In this document: piece after piece, positions 20,078 to 28,343 of the stretch
Numbering within the stretch: position 1 is the first letter of the stretch
Layout: each line of letters begins with the position of its first letter
Source: Natronococcus sp. A-GB7
GTDB lineage: Archaea; Halobacteriota; Halobacteria; Halobacteriales; Natrialbaceae
Assembly (NCBI RefSeq): GCF_029688865.1
Contig: NZ_JARUKV010000003.1
Span: 62,001 to 126,000, forward strand
Direction of reading: 5' to 3'
Length of the DNA: 64,000 nucleotides
The notes under the pieces: generated by a model
Databases searched by the model: none
Seen by the model: only the letters and a program-made list of their open reading frames with translations
What the model was told of the DNA's origin: nothing
Position numbers and translations under genes: made by a program

Positions 20078-20515
20078 ATGAACGTACGGGATGCACTCGA
20101 GGCCGACGCCGACGCGCTGGCGGCCATCGCCGACTCTCCGACCGACGTGATGCGGAACCTGGTTCACGACCGGACGGTCCGGGTCGCCGAGGACGGCACC
20201 CACGACCCGAACGCGGACGTCTCGGAGTCCCAGTACGGCGGCTCGGATCCCGAGGATCTGCTGGGGTTCGTCAGTTTCGACGCCCGCGAGGACACCGTCC
20301 ACATCACCCAGCTCGACGGGACGCCCGAGGCGTGCAAGCGACTGCTCGCCGAACCGGTCCGGTTCGCCGAGCGCGAGGGGATGGCCGTCGAGGTGTTGAT
20401 CGCGTCCGACGCCGAACTCATCGAGGACGCCGCTCAGGAGTTAGGGTTCGATCGTTACGGGCCGGGGCCGCGGTTCAACGGCGCCTCGACGGTTCGGTTC
20501 CGCCTCGAGTCCTAG
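20078..20515 (+). CDS. GNAT-like N-acetyltransferase domain protein
   Basis: A protein of 145 residues with GNAT-fold order: MNVRDALEADADALAAIAD at the N-terminus, a central LLGFVSFDAREDTVHITQLDG, and FAEREGMAVEVLIASDAELIE then ELGFDRYGPGPRF at the C-terminus. The classical R/Q-x-x-G-x-G acetyl-CoA loop is not visible, so catalytic activity is uncertain. Its TAG shares the palindrome CTAG (20512-20515) with the stop codon of the convergent polD1 gene. Confidence 0.75.
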   Translation: MNVRDALEADADALAAIADSPTDVMRNLVHDRTVRVAEDGTHDPNADVSESQYGGSDPEDLLGFVSFDAREDTVHITQLDGTPEACKRLLAEPVRFAEREGMAVEVLIASDAELIEDAAQELGFDRYGPGPRFNGASTVRFRLES

Positions 20516-22107
20516 CTGAACTTCTGGACGGTCACGTCGAGCGTATCGAGGTCGACGATCGGCGCGAATCCGGCGTCTGGCTGGATGTTGACGCTCTTCT
20601 GGAAGTCCGTCTGGGCCTGCCAGCAGCCGGAGTTGATCGCGAGCACGTTGTGATACTTCCCGAAGCCGAGCTTGTGGACGTGGCCCGTATGGAAGATGTC
20701 CGGAACCTCCTCCATGATCAGGTAGTCCTTCTCCTCGGGTGCGAGCCGGGTGTGACCCCCGAACTGCGGCGCGACGTGGCGCTTTTTCAGCAGCTGGTAC
20801 ATCGCTCGGTGCGGATCGTCGTAGCTCGCCTTCTCCTCGGGGAGTTCGGCGATGACCTCGTCGAGGCTGACGCCGTGGTACATCAGCACCGAGACGCCCT
20901 CGAGGGTTACGGTCGATGGGTTGCTGACGATCCGGGGGTCGTGAGCCGACATAATCGTCCGCAGCTTCTCGTCGAAGCCGGGCTGGGGTTCCGCGAGCCG
21001 GACCGCGTCGTGGTTGCCCGGGATCATGACGATCTCGATGTCGCCGGGTACCTGTTTCAGTCGCTCGTTGAACACTTCGTACTGCTCGTAGATGTCGATC
21101 ACGTCGAGCTCCTCGTCCTGGTTCGGGTAGACGCCCACGCCCTCGACCATATCGCCCGCGATCAGCAGGTACTCGACGTGTTGGGCCTCGGGCGTGTGAA
21201 GCCAGTCGGCGAATCGGTTCCAGGCCTCGCCCATGAACTCCTGGCTGCCGACGTGGACGTCGCTGATCAGCGCCGCCTGCACGTGGCGATCTGCCGTCGA
21301 CGGCTCGTGCGTGCGCGGGACGTCCGGGAAGTACATCGAGTCGACGAACGCGATCCCCGAGTCGTCGGCGAGGGTGCCCTCCATCGCCAGCACCTCGTCG
21401 TACAGCAGTTCGTCGACCAGATCGGCGTACTCCCGGTCTTTCATCACGAGCCACGGGAAGGTCCCGGTCGCGTCCTCGAGTTCGATCAGCCAGTGACCGC
21501 TCGCGGTCGAGCGCACGTCGTTGACCAGGCCGACCATTCCGGCCTCGCTGCCGCCGGGCATCGACTGGATCGCCGTCGCCGGACGGTGGTTGACCCGCCC
21601 GCGGAGCTTCGACCCCAGCCGCTCGAGACGGTCCCGGAACACCGAGACGAAGTCCCCGTACTCGCCGGTTCCCGTGCTCTCGCCGGTCATATCACCGGCA
21701 ATCTCGAGCGATCGCTCGAGCGGATCGGCCGACCGACCGCTCCCCTCGGGAACCCCCTTCGTTTCGACTGGACCTCCGGTAGCCGTCGGTCGAGAAGTGG
21801 AGCGTTCGTCTCCAGTCGAAGCGGAGGTGTTGTGGGTCGACGATTCGATCGAGTCGGGGCCGTCGTCGGTCGACGAACCGGCCGGATCGGTAGTTCGAGC
21901 GCCGTCGGAGACGGGCTCTCGCTCGAGGAGCGACTCGACGTGTTCCGATCGGACGACCAGCGCGTCGTCGGGGAGGTCCTCGAGAACGGCCTCGAGGGTC
22001 GTCGCCGGATCCTCGGTCGCGGCGATCCGCGTCACCGCCTCGCGCTCGGCGTTGTAGCCGCGGCTCGTGAGTTCACCGACGATCCGGGCGGGTCCCTCGA
22101 GTGGCAC
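20512..22107 (-). CDS. polD1: DNA polymerase D small (exonuclease) subunit DP1
   Basis: Proofreading subunit of the archaeal replicative polymerase D, 531 residues from GTG 22107 (VPLEGPARIVGELTSRG); no better in-frame ATG precedes it. The N-terminal domain is followed by a long Ser/Thr/Pro/Asp-rich disordered segment (about 65-150), an OB fold, and a calcineurin-like phosphoesterase domain with ALISDVHVGSQEF, YLLIAGDMVEGVGVY, MIPGNHDAVR and DIFHTGHVHKLGF, so the metal ligands are all present. It is divergent from a signal peptidase gene and near the replication origin. Confidence 0.95.
   Translation of the reverse strand: MPLEGPARIVGELTSRGYNAEREAVTRIAATEDPATTLEAVLEDLPDDALVVRSEHVESLLEREPVSDGARTTDPAGSSTDDGPDSIESSTHNTSASTGDERSTSRPTATGGPVETKGVPEGSGRSADPLERSLEIAGDMTGESTGTGEYGDFVSVFRDRLERLGSKLRGRVNHRPATAIQSMPGGSEAGMVGLVNDVRSTASGHWLIELEDATGTFPWLVMKDREYADLVDELLYDEVLAMEGTLADDSGIAFVDSMYFPDVPRTHEPSTADRHVQAALISDVHVGSQEFMGEAWNRFADWLHTPEAQHVEYLLIAGDMVEGVGVYPNQDEELDVIDIYEQYEVFNERLKQVPGDIEIVMIPGNHDAVRLAEPQPGFDEKLRTIMSAHDPRIVSNPSTVTLEGVSVLMYHGVSLDEVIAELPEEKASYDDPHRAMYQLLKKRHVAPQFGGHTRLAPEEKDYLIMEEVPDIFHTGHVHKLGFGKYHNVLAINSGCWQAQTDFQKSVNIQPDAGFAPIVDLDTLDVTVQKFS
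21752..21774 (-). other. ORB-like sequence inside polD1
   Basis: On the minus strand it reads gtccagtcgaaacgaaggg followed by ggt, which differs from the core origin boxes at 25728 and 26048 (tccagttgaaacgaagggg) by one base over the first 18 positions. It lies in the coding sequence of the disordered linker and encodes PVETKGV. It may be a functional Orc1 site or a chance or dispersed copy. Confidence 0.5.
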
Positions 22108-23303: not shown

Positions 23304-24950
23304 TCAGTTCTCGAATCGCGCCTGGACGAACGGCTGGATGTCGTCGATATTGCTCAGTCGGGAGTCCGAGAGCAGGACAGCCTCGGTCTCGTCGATCGGC
23401 ACCGAGAGGCTGATCTCCTTGGTCCGACCGTAGCGTCCCTTCGAGACGACGACGGCGTTGACGATCCCGAGCATGTCGAGTTCGCTGATGAGGTCAGTTA
23501 CCCGACGCTGGGTGAGGACGTCGGCGTCGATCTCCTCGCAGAGGCGCTTGTAGATGTTGAACACCTCGCCGGTGTTGATGCTGTGGACGCCGTTTTTCTC
23601 GAGCAGGATGATCGAGAAGAGGACGAGTTTGCTCTGTGTGGGGAGCGTGCGGACGACCTCGACGACCCGGTCGAGTTCGATCTTGTCCTGTGCCTGCCGG
23701 ACGTGTTTCTCGACGATCGTCTCGGCCTGGGAGCGCTCCGCCAGTTCGCCCGCGGTTCGGAGCAAGTCGAGCGCTCGACGCGCGTCGCCGTGTTCCTGGG
23801 CGGCGAAGGCCGCACATAGCGGGATCACGTCGTCCGATAGCGCGTCGCCCTTGAAGGCGACGTTCGATCGGTGCTGGAGGATATCCCGGAGCTGATTCGC
23901 GTCGTACGGCGGGAAGACGATCTCCTCCTCGCCGAGGCTTGATTTGACTCGCGGGTCGAGGAAGTCGGTGAACTTCAGATCGTTCGAGATCCCGATGATC
24001 GACACACGGGAGTTCTCGAGTTCGGAGTTCATCCGCGAGAGGTTGTACAGCGTGTCGTCCCCGCTCTTCTCGACGAGCTTGTCGATCTCGTCTAACATGA
24101 TGACGACGACCCGCTCGTCGTAGTCGACGGCGTCGAAGAAGACGCTGTACACTCGATCGGTCGGCCAGCCGGTCATCGGTACCTCCTGGAACGACTCCTT
24201 GTCCTCCTCGAGGGAGTCGATCCGGTCCTCGACGTCCTCGCGATCGGAGAACGGCGTGGACGCAAGCGGGTGTTCCCCGTTGGCTACGTCCGCATCCGCC
24301 GGCTCCGTCGACCCCCCCGTTTCGACTGGAGAATCGGACGACTGCGACTCGATATCGGTTGCAAACGAAACGTCGTCGTTCGAGTCGCGCTCGTCGGATC
24401 GCTCGGTCGAGTCGTTGTGACCCGCGCCCGTTTCGTACTCCTCGAGCGCCTCGAGGCGCTCCTCGAGTGCGTCGACCTTCCGGTCGATCCGGGCCTCGTT
24501 CTTCTCGATGAACTTGTTCGCGAGCTGTGCGAGGACGCGGTACTGGGTGTCGGTCACTTCGCAGTTGATGTACTCGACGTCACAGGGGACGCTGTACTTC
24601 TGGGAGGTGCTCTCGAGTTCCTTGCTGACGAACTTCGCGCTCGCGGTCTTTCCGGTCCCCGTCTTCCCGTAGATCAGGATGTTCGAGGGCGTCTCGCCCC
24701 GGAGCGCGGCGACGAGGATCGTCGCCATCTTGTTGATCTGGTCGGTCCGGTGGGGCAGTTCGTGGGGCGTGTAGGACGGACGCAGTACTTCCTTGTTCTC
24801 GAAGATCGGCTCACCGCTGAGCAGGTCGTCGAACAGTCCCTGGCTCGGTTCCTCGTCGCCGATCGCCGTCTCGTCGAGCGTCGTCGAGAACCCGTCGGTC
24901 TCGCCCTCGACGTCGTCGGTTCCTGGCGGCTCTGAGTTGTCGTCTGACAT
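23304..24950 (-). CDS. orc1: Origin recognition / replication initiator protein Orc1/Cdc6
   Basis: AAA+ initiator of 548 residues that binds ORBs and opens the origin. Walker A GKTGTGKTAS (95-104), Walker B MLDEID (about 286-290), sensor and SRVSIIGISNDLKF, and a C-terminal winged-helix domain (about 440-548, TQRRVTDLISELDMLGIVNA). An insert of about 75 residues, rich in Ser/Asp/Glu and disordered (about 172-245), separates Walker A and B; haloarchaeal origin-linked Orc1 proteins often have such an insert. Its promoter region contains an ORB-like box, and the origin follows directly. Confidence 0.96.
   Translation of the reverse strand: MSDDNSEPPGTDDVEGETDGFSTTLDETAIGDEEPSQGLFDDLLSGEPIFENKEVLRPSYTPHELPHRTDQINKMATILVAALRGETPSNILIYGKTGTGKTASAKFVSKELESTSQKYSVPCDVEYINCEVTDTQYRVLAQLANKFIEKNEARIDRKVDALEERLEALEEYETGAGHNDSTERSDERDSNDDVSFATDIESQSSDSPVETGGSTEPADADVANGEHPLASTPFSDREDVEDRIDSLEEDKESFQEVPMTGWPTDRVYSVFFDAVDYDERVVVIMLDEIDKLVEKSGDDTLYNLSRMNSELENSRVSIIGISNDLKFTDFLDPRVKSSLGEEEIVFPPYDANQLRDILQHRSNVAFKGDALSDDVIPLCAAFAAQEHGDARRALDLLRTAGELAERSQAETIVEKHVRQAQDKIELDRVVEVVRTLPTQSKLVLFSIILLEKNGVHSINTGEVFNIYKRLCEEIDADVLTQRRVTDLISELDMLGIVNAVVVSKGRYGRTKEISLSVPIDETEAVLLSDSRLSNIDDIQPFVQARFEN
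24311..24333 (-). other. ORB-like sequence inside orc1
   Basis: On the minus strand: tctccagtcgaaacggggg plus two further g. It matches the core box (tccagt-gaaacg then a G string). It lies in the coding sequence of the disordered insert and encodes SPVETGGS, the same PVET peptide as the box in polD1. Confidence 0.5.
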
Positions 24951-25727: not shown

Positions 25728-25753
25728 CCCCCCACCCCTTCGTTTCAACTGGA
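25728..25753 (-). other. Origin recognition box ORB1
   Basis: The minus strand carries tccagttgaaacgaagggg then tgggggg, identical over 26 bp to ORB2 in opposite orientation. The trailing G-string is the feature described for haloarchaeal ORBs. Its G-string points toward orc1. Confidence 0.9.
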
Positions 25754-25865
25754 GAACGACGAGGGGGAGGGATGGGTGAAACGGAAAGAACGGTCGCCGG
25801 GGAACGATGTTCAGGTCCCGACCGGACGATTTCGGGGTGCTCGAGAGATGTACGGGAGTTTCCGT

Positions 25866-26000
25866 AACGAGAGATGTAGACAAATCATCTAGCTAGATAG
25901 TTCAAGGGAAAGCTAGCAACTAGAAGTACTAGCTAGCAATCTCTAGTAAATAGTTTCTCCCTTGTCCAGTACGGATGCTGTTTCTGGCCTGTCTAAATAA
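25866..26000. other. AT-rich, CTAG-rich element between ORBs (putative duplex-unwinding element)
   Basis: The richest AT stretch of the origin. Seven copies of the tetramer CTAG lie between 25889 and 25946 (58 bp), including two ctagctag doublets. The core is framed by caaggga (25904 area) and tcccttg (25958 area), an inverted repeat. Its position between inverted ORBs matches a duplex-unwinding element. Confidence 0.75.
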
Positions 26001-26047
26001 AACCTTCCACTTCAGAGACCCCCTCCCCACCCCCTTCCTTGGAGCGT

Positions 26048-26073
26048 TCCAGTTGAAACGAAGGGGTGGGGGG
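26048..26073 (+). other. Origin recognition box ORB2
   Basis: Plus-strand copy of the same 26-bp sequence as ORB1; its G-string points toward oapA. The G-string overlaps a small inverted repeat, aggggtg-ggggg-cacccct (26062-26080). Confidence 0.9.
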
Positions 26074-26268: not shown

Positions 26269-26907
26269 ATGGGACTGTTAACAGGACTCAAAGATAGTAT
26301 CTCCCGGGTTACGGATCGATTGTTTACCGACGATCAACCCAAACGAATCGGAATCTACGGACCGCCCAACGCTGGAAAGACGACGCTTGCGAATCGCATC
26401 GCGCGGGACTGGACCGGCGATGCGGTCGGAACCGAAAGTCACGTTCCACACGAAACACGCCGCGCACGCCGAAAGGAGGACGTCGAGATCGAACGCGACG
26501 GACAGTCCGTTTCGATCGACATCGTCGACACGCCCGGCGTAACTACGAAGGTGGACTACGAGGAGTTCACCGACGAGATGGAGGAAGACGACGCGATCCG
26601 TCGGTCCCGCGAGGCCACGGAAGGCGTCGCCGAGGCGATGCACTGGCTTCGCGAGGACGTCGACGGCGTTATCTACGTTCTCGACAGCGCGGAGGATCCG
26701 ATCACGCAGGTCAACACGATGCTGATCGGCATCATCGAATCCCGCGATCTGCCGGTTCTCATCTTCGCGAACAAGATCGACCTCGACGAAGCGAGCGTCA
26801 AACGGATCGAGGACGCGTTCCCCCAGCACAAGACGGTCCCGCTCTCCGCGAAGGAGGGTCAGAACATGGACGAGGTCTACGACAACATCGCGGAGTACTT
26901 CGGGTGA
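26269..26907 (+). CDS. oapA: Origin-associated GTP-binding protein OapA (Era/Der-like)
   Basis: Small GTPase of 212 residues. G1 GPPNAGKTT (31-39), G3 DTPG (87-90), G4 NKID (168-171), G5 SAK (193-195). An insert with EEFTDEMEEDDAIRRSREATEG follows G3. The gene next to the haloarchaeal origin is conserved and has been described as an origin-associated GTPase; its exact role is unresolved. First gene of a tight operon with oapB and oapC; ATG 26269 preceded by cggagggcc. Confidence 0.9.
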   Translation: MGLLTGLKDSISRVTDRLFTDDQPKRIGIYGPPNAGKTTLANRIARDWTGDAVGTESHVPHETRRARRKEDVEIERDGQSVSIDIVDTPGVTTKVDYEEFTDEMEEDDAIRRSREATEGVAEAMHWLREDVDGVIYVLDSAEDPITQVNTMLIGIIESRDLPVLIFANKIDLDEASVKRIEDAFPQHKTVPLSAKEGQNMDEVYDNIAEYFG

Positions 26908-26913
26908 TCAGTC

Positions 26914-27318
26914 GTGCCCAAGGCAACTAACCCGGACGACCCCAACGGCGACGACGGCGTACAGATCGACCTCATCAGCGGTGAGCGGATGGATTCGCTC
27001 GCCTCCACGGAGAAGATCAGGATGATCCTCGACGGCGTTCACGACGGTAACATCGTTATCTTAGAGGAGGGGCTCACCCCCGACGAGGAGAGCAAGCTCA
27101 TCGAGATGACGATGGCCGAGATCAGCCCCGACGCCGGATTCAACGGTATCGAGATCGAGACCTACCCCAAATCGGAGACGAAGGACTCGTCGCTGCTGGG
27201 TCGGCTCATGGGATCGAACGAGTCGGCGGCGAAGCTGACGGTAATCGGGCCCGCGAACCAGATCGAGACGCTCCACAAGGACGAAACGCTGATCAGCGCG
27301 CTCGTATCCCGCAACTAA
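26914..27318 (+). CDS. oapB: Origin-associated protein OapB (DUF2073)
   Basis: A protein of 134 residues from GTG 26914, 6 bp after oapA. The sequence GVQIDLISGERMDSLASTEK, ILDGVHDGNIVILEEGLTPDEE and LTVIGPANQIETLHKDETLI fits the archaeal DUF2073/OapB family. No enzymatic motif. Its stop TAA overlaps the oapC ATG (TAATG), so translation is coupled. Role at the origin is known only from context and genetics in other haloarchaea. Confidence 0.88.
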   Translation: MPKATNPDDPNGDDGVQIDLISGERMDSLASTEKIRMILDGVHDGNIVILEEGLTPDEESKLIEMTMAEISPDAGFNGIEIETYPKSETKDSSLLGRLMGSNESAAKLTVIGPANQIETLHKDETLISALVSRN

Positions 27319-28343
27319 TGCCACACCAGTGTACGAACTGTGGCCACACGTTTCCCGACGGCTCGAAGGAGATGCTCTCGGGCTGTCCGGACTGTGGCGG
27401 GAACAAGTTCCAGTTTACGCCGGACTCGGACTCGGAGTCGAGCGCCGAGGACGGCGCCGACGGAGACGCCGGCCCCGAAACGCCACCACCGACTAGCGAC
27501 CCCTCCGACGAGGGAGCCGACGGTGTCGCCTCTCGAGCGGCCGAGACCGTCCGCGGCTGGGTTTCCTCGGACTCGAGCGACGAGTCGACGCACGATCCAG
27601 CGGAGTCGCCGGCAGCCGACCGACCGACGACGAGCGCCGGTTCGTCCGACCGCGACGGGACGAACAGCCGGAGCGGAGAGACGGCCGACGCCTCTCGAGA
27701 CGCGAACTCGTCCCGAAACTCGCGCTCGCCGTCGACCCGATCCGGAGACCGGAGCCGAGCGGCTACCGACCGGGACGACGACTCGTTCACCGAATGGCCG
27801 GACTCAGCTCGTCGACCCGAGGACCGCTCCTCGTCGCCTGCGGAATCCGCGACCGACGACGCCGCCGACGATCGTGCCGTCTCCGAGCCGTCGACGAGCG
27901 ATCGGCGAACCGACTCGAGTTCGGACGGCTCAAGCGAGCGCTCCGAACTCGACCACGAGACGGTGACGATGGCGGACTCGGAGGACTCCGCGCAGGCGAC
28001 CGCCCGAAGCGAGGTCGTTCCGGCCGACGATCTCCCCGCCGGCTCGAGCGCGGCCGGCGAGGGGGATCCGATCACGGAAGTCGATCCCGTCGACGACGAA
28101 CCCGAAGAGACGCCCGATCACGGTCGGGTCGTCAGCGAACCCTCGGGCGAGCAGCCGTCGATCGAGGAGCTCCGCGCGGAGCTCAACGAGCAGTTCGAGA
28201 GCATCAAAATCCTCCGCCCGGGTCAGTACGAACTCAACCTCATGGAGCTGTACAACCGCGACGAGTACATCATCTCGCTCCAGGAGGACGGGCGGTACGT
28301 CATCGACGTTCCGGAGTCCTGGCACGACGACGTCGACGAGTAG
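27318..28343 (+). CDS. oapC: Origin-associated zinc-ribbon protein OapC (DUF2072)
   Basis: A protein of 341 residues. The N-terminal zinc ribbon is CTNCGHTF...CPDCGGNKF (residues 4-29). Residues from about 40 to 250 are a low-complexity Ser/Asp/Glu/Arg/Thr-rich disordered region. The conserved C-terminal domain (about 280-335) reads SIEELRAELNEQFESIKILR then QYELNLMELYNRDEYIISLQ. The two ordered ends match the DUF2072/OapC family; the long disordered middle is the haloarchaeal elaboration. Confidence 0.88.
   Translation: MPHQCTNCGHTFPDGSKEMLSGCPDCGGNKFQFTPDSDSESSAEDGADGDAGPETPPPTSDPSDEGADGVASRAAETVRGWVSSDSSDESTHDPAESPAADRPTTSAGSSDRDGTNSRSGETADASRDANSSRNSRSPSTRSGDRSRAATDRDDDSFTEWPDSARRPEDRSSSPAESATDDAADDRAVSEPSTSDRRTDSSSDGSSERSELDHETVTMADSEDSAQATARSEVVPADDLPAGSSAAGEGDPITEVDPVDDEPEETPDHGRVVSEPSGEQPSIEELRAELNEQFESIKILRPGQYELNLMELYNRDEYIISLQEDGRYVIDVPESWHDDVDE

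Follow-up and report, generated by a model that had tools for sequence, protein, structure and literature searches.

Clusters of the tetramer CTAG upstream of orc1/cdc6 genes were described in Haloarchaea by Blow et al. (2016), who found them to correlate with an orphan m4C methyltransferase (PMC4752239, Fig. 6D). In the portion of that paper considered here, the text once prints the motif as CATG while the figure legend gives CTAG, motif density is given over 50 kb, and there is neither a placement of the sites relative to ORBs or an unwinding element nor an analysis of phasing or spacing conservation; the same portion includes no inter-ORB test and no array persisting without orc1. Ouellette et al. 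(2018) reported CTAG enrichment at one Haloferax origin only (PMC5867850). The locus that we describe shares with the clusters of Blow et al., as far as that portion goes, the motif, the non-coding site upstream of orc1/cdc6, the occurrence of several clusters per genome and the methyltransferase correlation, and its cluster is likewise kept in relatives.

Two archaeal origins offer anatomical parallels. The oriC1 of Haloarcula hispanica (PMC3936714) has an AT-rich element between G-string ORBs, an inner G-rich inverted repeat, which was shown to enhance that origin, and an adjacent orc1, as our locus does; the word CTAG is absent from that paper, and the mutations in the portion considered here concern the ORBs and G-rich repeats only, not the AT-rich element. 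In Sulfolobus, the ucm element and its protein UBP (PMC12141716) are also a case of an additional conserved cis element beside the ORBs, but ucm has a different sequence, is a single 11-bp element and is not methylation-linked. UBP is reported to have been acquired recently by Desulfurococcales and Sulfolobales (PMC12141716); kinship with ucm/UBP is rejected because of the different sequence and because reports of UBP are confined to other orders. The GATC/Dam/SeqA system of E. coli oriC resembles our locus in its palindromic methylation targets, clustered in and around the unwinding element, and in its orphan methyltransferase, but it differs in the mark (m6A instead of m4C), in the frequency of the motif (GATC is common, CTAG rare genome-wide) and in the initiation machinery, which is Orc1/MCM in archaea. 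Moreover, we know of no SeqA-like reader for haloarchaeal CTAG origins. GATC itself shows no clustering of the Dam/SeqA type, with a mean of 1.87 GATC versus 6.26 CTAG between the ORBs in Natrialbaceae.

The window (the whole 64-kb stretch of DNA analyzed) carries on its minus strand an Orc1/Cdc6 initiator gene of 548 aa (23304 to 24950; NCBIfam NF001625 ORC1-type, 653.8 bits; Pfam Cdc6_C and Cdc6_lid). Beyond it lie a left ORB with the halophile G-string CCCCCCACCCCTTCGTTTCAACTGGA (25728 to 25753, minus strand), which matches the ORB core exactly and is conserved in relatives, and the left arm of a G-rich inner repeat (25761 to 25776, plus strand) resembling the Haloarcula hispanica oriC1 enhancer repeat (PMC3936714). 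The AT-rich element that follows (25859 to 25958) has the lowest nearest-neighbor stability of any 100 bp in the 64 kb (z = 4.7). It includes a TCCGTA block (25861 to 25866, plus strand), conserved directly 5' of the array in Natrialbaceae, and then the array of seven CTAG sites (25889 to 25946) itself, and the interval 25893 to 25952, nearly coextensive with the array, ranks among the least stable 60-bp stretches. The right arm of the inner repeat (26019 to 26034, minus strand) and the right ORB with G-string TCCAGTTGAAACGAAGGGGTGGGGGG (26048 to 26073, plus strand) follow on the other side. An OapA-type GTPase gene (26269 to 26907, plus strand; Pfam MMR_HSR1), named from its position ahead of oapB and oapC and with orthologs in 135/135 genomes of our order sample, is followed on the same strand by oapB (26914 to 27318; Pfam PF09846 OapB) and oapC (27318 to 28343; Pfam PF09845 OapC). 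With orc1/cdc6 on one side, oapABC on the other and an AT-rich element flanked by inverted ORBs with G-strings in between, the site is most likely a canonical haloarchaeal oriC1, its presumed roles as origin and unwinding element following from this anatomy. An origin with an AT-rich, unwinding-type element had been proposed in an earlier note on this DNA, and the Orc1/Cdc6 gene, the inverted ORBs, oapABC and the lowest-stability 100 bp all agree with it. Near oriC1, we also observed a gene for the DNA polymerase D small subunit (20512 to 22104, minus strand; NF003116, 976.6 bits), whose listed open reading frame exceeds the gene.

The seven CTAGs start at 25889, 25893, 25913, 25920, 25929, 25933 and 25943, and four of them are paired in two CTAGCTAG doublets. 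The array was chosen post hoc, but in a genome-wide search CTAG triples within 52 bp or less occur only at the array, at two other Orc1/Cdc6-linked places and on the CTAG-rich contig C5. Dinucleotide shuffling of these 58 bp, which keeps the inflated CT, TA and AG steps, reaches seven CTAG at p = 0.00025 and a base shuffle yields at most 3 in 20,000 permutations, while CTAG tops all 256 tetramers for over-representation (12-fold) between 25840 and 26000. The surroundings are poor in the motif, with 30 CTAG in the window versus 97 +/- 9 in dinucleotide shuffles, none in the twelve other AT-rich (at least 55%) 100-bp windows of the 64 kb and ~0.3 per kb in ten stretches (196.9 kb) sampled elsewhere in the genome, so that the array stands at ~400 times the local background. 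The count of seven sites in 58 bp with four in doublets, as given in the earlier note, is thus exact, all starts being recovered; its judgment that the cluster is far from random is borne out by both shuffles, and its expectation that CTAG is scarce elsewhere holds for the window and for the ten stretches. Chance or AT-richness as the cause is ruled out by the shuffles, the tetramer ranking and the CTAG-poor AT-rich windows.

The earlier note had also called for a comparison with homologous origins, which we collected via OapA. The DNA between the ORBs of Natrialbaceae holds a mean of 6.26 CTAG versus 1.24 expected from composition. Enrichment at the oriC1 of relatives, whose absence would have spoken against the earlier note, is thus present. 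Thirty-six canonical arrays were anchored on the commonest spaced triple, whose sites -10, 0 and +31 belong to the anchor pattern itself. In these arrays, position -52 is occupied in 32/36, -32/-31 in 36/36 and the anchor position +31 in 36/36, and further recurrent sites appear at -101 (17 arrays), -73 (five) and +51/+52 (13). Among 19 anchored relatives, the CTAG columns at -10 and 0, both of which define the anchor, are invariant, and the spacer between 0 and +31 has a mean identity of 0.53. The sites -73, -52, -31, -10, 0, +31 and +52 fall on multiples of ~10.4 bp (R = 0.97), -101 being off. Counted as a single ancestral arrangement, this phasing has p of about 1e-4 to 3e-3, or 5e-3 with the -101 site included. 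Of the noncanonical oriC1 CTAGs, only the recurrent -73 and +51/52 are in phase, single sites being scattered. Helical phasing at all origins is unsupported, as oriC2 and third-type clusters are mostly nonsignificant, and a hint of 11-bp spacing is restricted to the Natronococcus oriC2 group.

The canonical array is anchored to the left ORB, at 152 to 156 bp in 36/36 origins. The distance to the right ORB is mostly 156 to 158, 165 to 168, 176 to 178 or 187 to 188 bp in the same 36 origins, classes that lie about one helical turn apart. Across the Natrialbaceae oriC1 loci (L012 to L061 and L154 to L221), we also observed inter-ORB distances clustering at ~311 to 313, 320 to 326, 332 to 336 and 345 to 346 bp, again about one turn apart, with a weaker tendency in other families and with shared ancestry not removed. 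The spaced pattern CTAG-N6-CTAG-N25-29-CTAG occurs in 75/101 family genomes, usually in one copy, and lies 326 to 906 bp upstream of oapA in 63 of them; the corresponding GATC control pattern typically occurs about 10 to 20 times per strand. Exceptions to the location upstream of oapA include two chromosome records that start at the origin, some copies that precede a different Orc1/Cdc6 gene and a few with no such gene nearby. In genus g9 (G059, G087, G106, G119, G131 and G140), the GATC control pattern hardly occurs, which suggests GATC avoidance.

The array of the window departs from this canonical arrangement. Measured from TCCGTA, its sites 25889/25893, 25913 and 25920 lie near canonical sites -31, -10 and 0, its sites 25929, 25933 and 25943 are additional to the canonical set, and the +31 position reads ATAG. 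Taken alone, it gives a nonsignificant phasing p of 0.136, whereas canonical relatives are clearly phased. The arrangement varies further among other Natronococcus origins, with N. pandeyae retaining the canonical spacing. The Natronococcus array is reshuffled, with the number of sites kept, their positions turned over and the spacing partly lost. The retention of site number despite this turnover is consistent with selection acting on the CTAG word as such.

CTAG clusters recur at other loci of the same genome. On contigs C1, C3, C14 and C23, three CTAG within ~100 bp lie near Orc1/Cdc6 genes; the other triples are one place on C7 without an Orc1/Cdc6 gene, a C25 stretch of 43% GC and contig C5. 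The latter (G000, 137,672 bp) holds repeated CTAG triples at ordinary GC; the parts covered show no Orc1/Cdc6 gene in the vicinity of these triples, and the contig could represent a plasmid, contamination or an integrated element. The inverted ORBs that flank the C1 cluster belong to a second type, and relatives have oriC2 clusters of this kind as well. L186, L192 and L184 have clusters that match or exceed the window array in size: ahead of Orc1/Cdc6 genes of a third kind, 8 CTAG stand in ~60 bp, and one oriC2 has ~16 in 190 bp. Genus g5 (L193, L194 and L196 to L201) keeps the ORB-array-ORB unit without orc1 or oapA in the 4.5 kb examined; at the two loci studied in detail, the unit is flanked by genes for a class III aminotransferase and a carbonic anhydrase. 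Since array and ORBs persist there without either gene nearby, the array belongs to the origin, and a function as an orc1 or oapA promoter element is ruled out. Altogether, CTAG clusters at origins and their methyltransferase link are already published, and the phased, ORB-anchored architecture appears to be new: in the open-access papers found (subscription journals and supplements being outside the search), we met no description of the spacing, of the left-ORB anchoring or of persistence without orc1.

A widespread haloarchaeal orphan methylase has been described as the HVO_0794 CTAG enzyme (PMC6471742, PMC5867850), and measurements in Natrinema pallidum, a Natrialbaceae species, showed m4C at CTAG (PMC12160562). 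The window's genome encodes one close member of a conserved haloarchaeal DNA methylase family (L091, G000 contig C34, 203292 to 204347; Pfam N6_N4_Mtase). From this conserved, mostly single-copy gene, we infer that L091 is the HVO_0794 ortholog and specific for CTAG. The common haloarchaeal CTAG methyltransferase invoked in the earlier note is thus present as a conserved m4C-type gene, and its specificity remains at the level of a prediction. The putative enzyme is found in 92/92 near-complete family genomes and in 122/135 genomes of the order sample. Outside Natrialbaceae, genomes with the gene hold 2.29 CTAG between the ORBs versus 0.84 expected and those lacking it 0.56 versus 0.87 expected (present versus absent, Mann-Whitney p = 0.0003); within one family, the values are 1.81 and 0.14, respectively (p = 0.0007). 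The nine gene-negative genomes, one of which (L087) has a 39% identical homolog, span several genera but belong mostly to one family, and the correlation is for that reason not fully independent of ancestry. Several methyltransferase-positive genomes have just 0 or 1 CTAG between the ORBs; the gene does not guarantee a dense oriC1 array. The lack of arrays where the putative methyltransferase is absent suggests, on these gene and motif counts, that methylation may mark the origin. Taken as a whole, the interpretation given in the earlier note is supported in part.

The reading that we put forward, at roughly even chances, is that the seven CTAGs form a methylation-site array of the oriC1 unwinding element, probably sensitive to its methylation state. 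It draws on the location of the sites, their conservation at homologous origins, their recurrence near Orc1/Cdc6 genes and the methyltransferase link. The orphan m4C methyltransferase would keep the array CTAGs methylated, and the passage of a replication fork would leave all of them hemimethylated simultaneously. This hemimethylated state could alter how easily the element opens or is bound, and it might be sensed by a reader protein or by Orc1/MCM themselves, thereby spacing initiation events or marking the origin. We know of no hemimethylation reader. In most relatives, helical phasing and the fixed left-ORB distance suggest that the sites could be read by a protein assembly from a single face of the helix. 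Reports cited in one paper indicate that N4-methylcytosine does not destabilize duplexes (PMC4477647), and physical destabilization by m4C was accordingly not adopted. More tentatively, and as a possibility short of likely, the helically phased, ORB-anchored m4C array in the unwinding element of Natrialbaceae chromosome origins would constitute a methylation-gated origin-opening switch, sensed along a single helical face, an independently evolved archaeal counterpart of Dam-controlled oriC. A general essential role is countered by a Haloferax volcanii strain without CTAG methylation, which grows normally; in that species, however, only one origin is CTAG-rich and oriC1 is not dense (PMC5867850). 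Haloferax volcanii is also able to live without origins.

The main rival is that a sequence-specific protein binds the array (motif about TTACTAGA, two-turn spacing) and thereby bends or opens the origin, a role comparable to that of Sulfolobus UBP at ucm or of E. coli IHF/Fis, with methylation being incidental. In favor of this rival are the regular ~10.4-bp placement (R = 0.97), the biased flanks at oriC1 (TTA 5' of CTAG and A 3'), the fixed left-ORB distance and the few classes of right-ORB distance for most of the 36 origins. The flank bias is, however, absent from the oriC2 clusters, where CTAG is the sole clear common element, and the sites of the window mostly stand in other flank contexts. 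Moreover, protein binding leaves the dependence on the methyltransferase gene unexplained, and all oriC1 arrays may share one ancestral arrangement. We regard it as somewhat unlikely with methylation incidental; protein binding and a methylation-site array can, however, be true together.

Two further explanations are much less probable. The cluster could be a side effect of relaxed counterselection against CTAG, or of plain AT-richness, in the unwinding element: CTAG contains a weak TpA step, the element is AT-rich, and triples free of an origin exist on contig C5 and in the low-GC C25 stretch. Relaxation alone would nevertheless raise CTAG to expectation and never beyond, and the family count reaches about fivefold the level expected from composition. 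CTAG is also the top tetramer where other AT-rich windows are almost free of it, and the sites are conserved while the spacers are not, leaving this explanation improbable. Even less credit is due to the idea that the CTAGs mark the origin for another methylation-linked function, for instance, telling strands apart in repair or recognizing the replicon as self. The sites are indeed palindromic targets of a conserved orphan methyltransferase, and several haloarchaeal viruses have little or no CTAG (PMC6471742), but CTAG is too scarce genome-wide for directing mismatch repair (PMC6471742), and a restriction threat would select against, not for, CTAG at the origin.

What is at stake in the methylation-site array is whether any archaeon controls the replication of its chromosome by DNA methylation. 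The data suggest that Haloferax is a poor test organism, its oriC1 not being CTAG-rich. Because the Natrialbaceae arrays are dense, conserved and located in DNA that must melt, a few point mutations there could give the answer, and the conserved spacing supplies a concrete footprint for finding a reading protein.

Two other loci were noted. In Saliphagus infecundisoli (G077; L030/L209), the region upstream of oapA is without an ORB and has almost no CTAG, and the putative CTAG methyltransferase gene is present in two close copies; the oriC1 of this genome may have moved. In the window, two very AT-rich stretches between 35458 and 35718 give the lowest 60-bp stability in the 64 kb; they partly repeat each other's wording (tagcctcatctaatgat and tagcctcgtctaataat) and are possibly a foreign insert.
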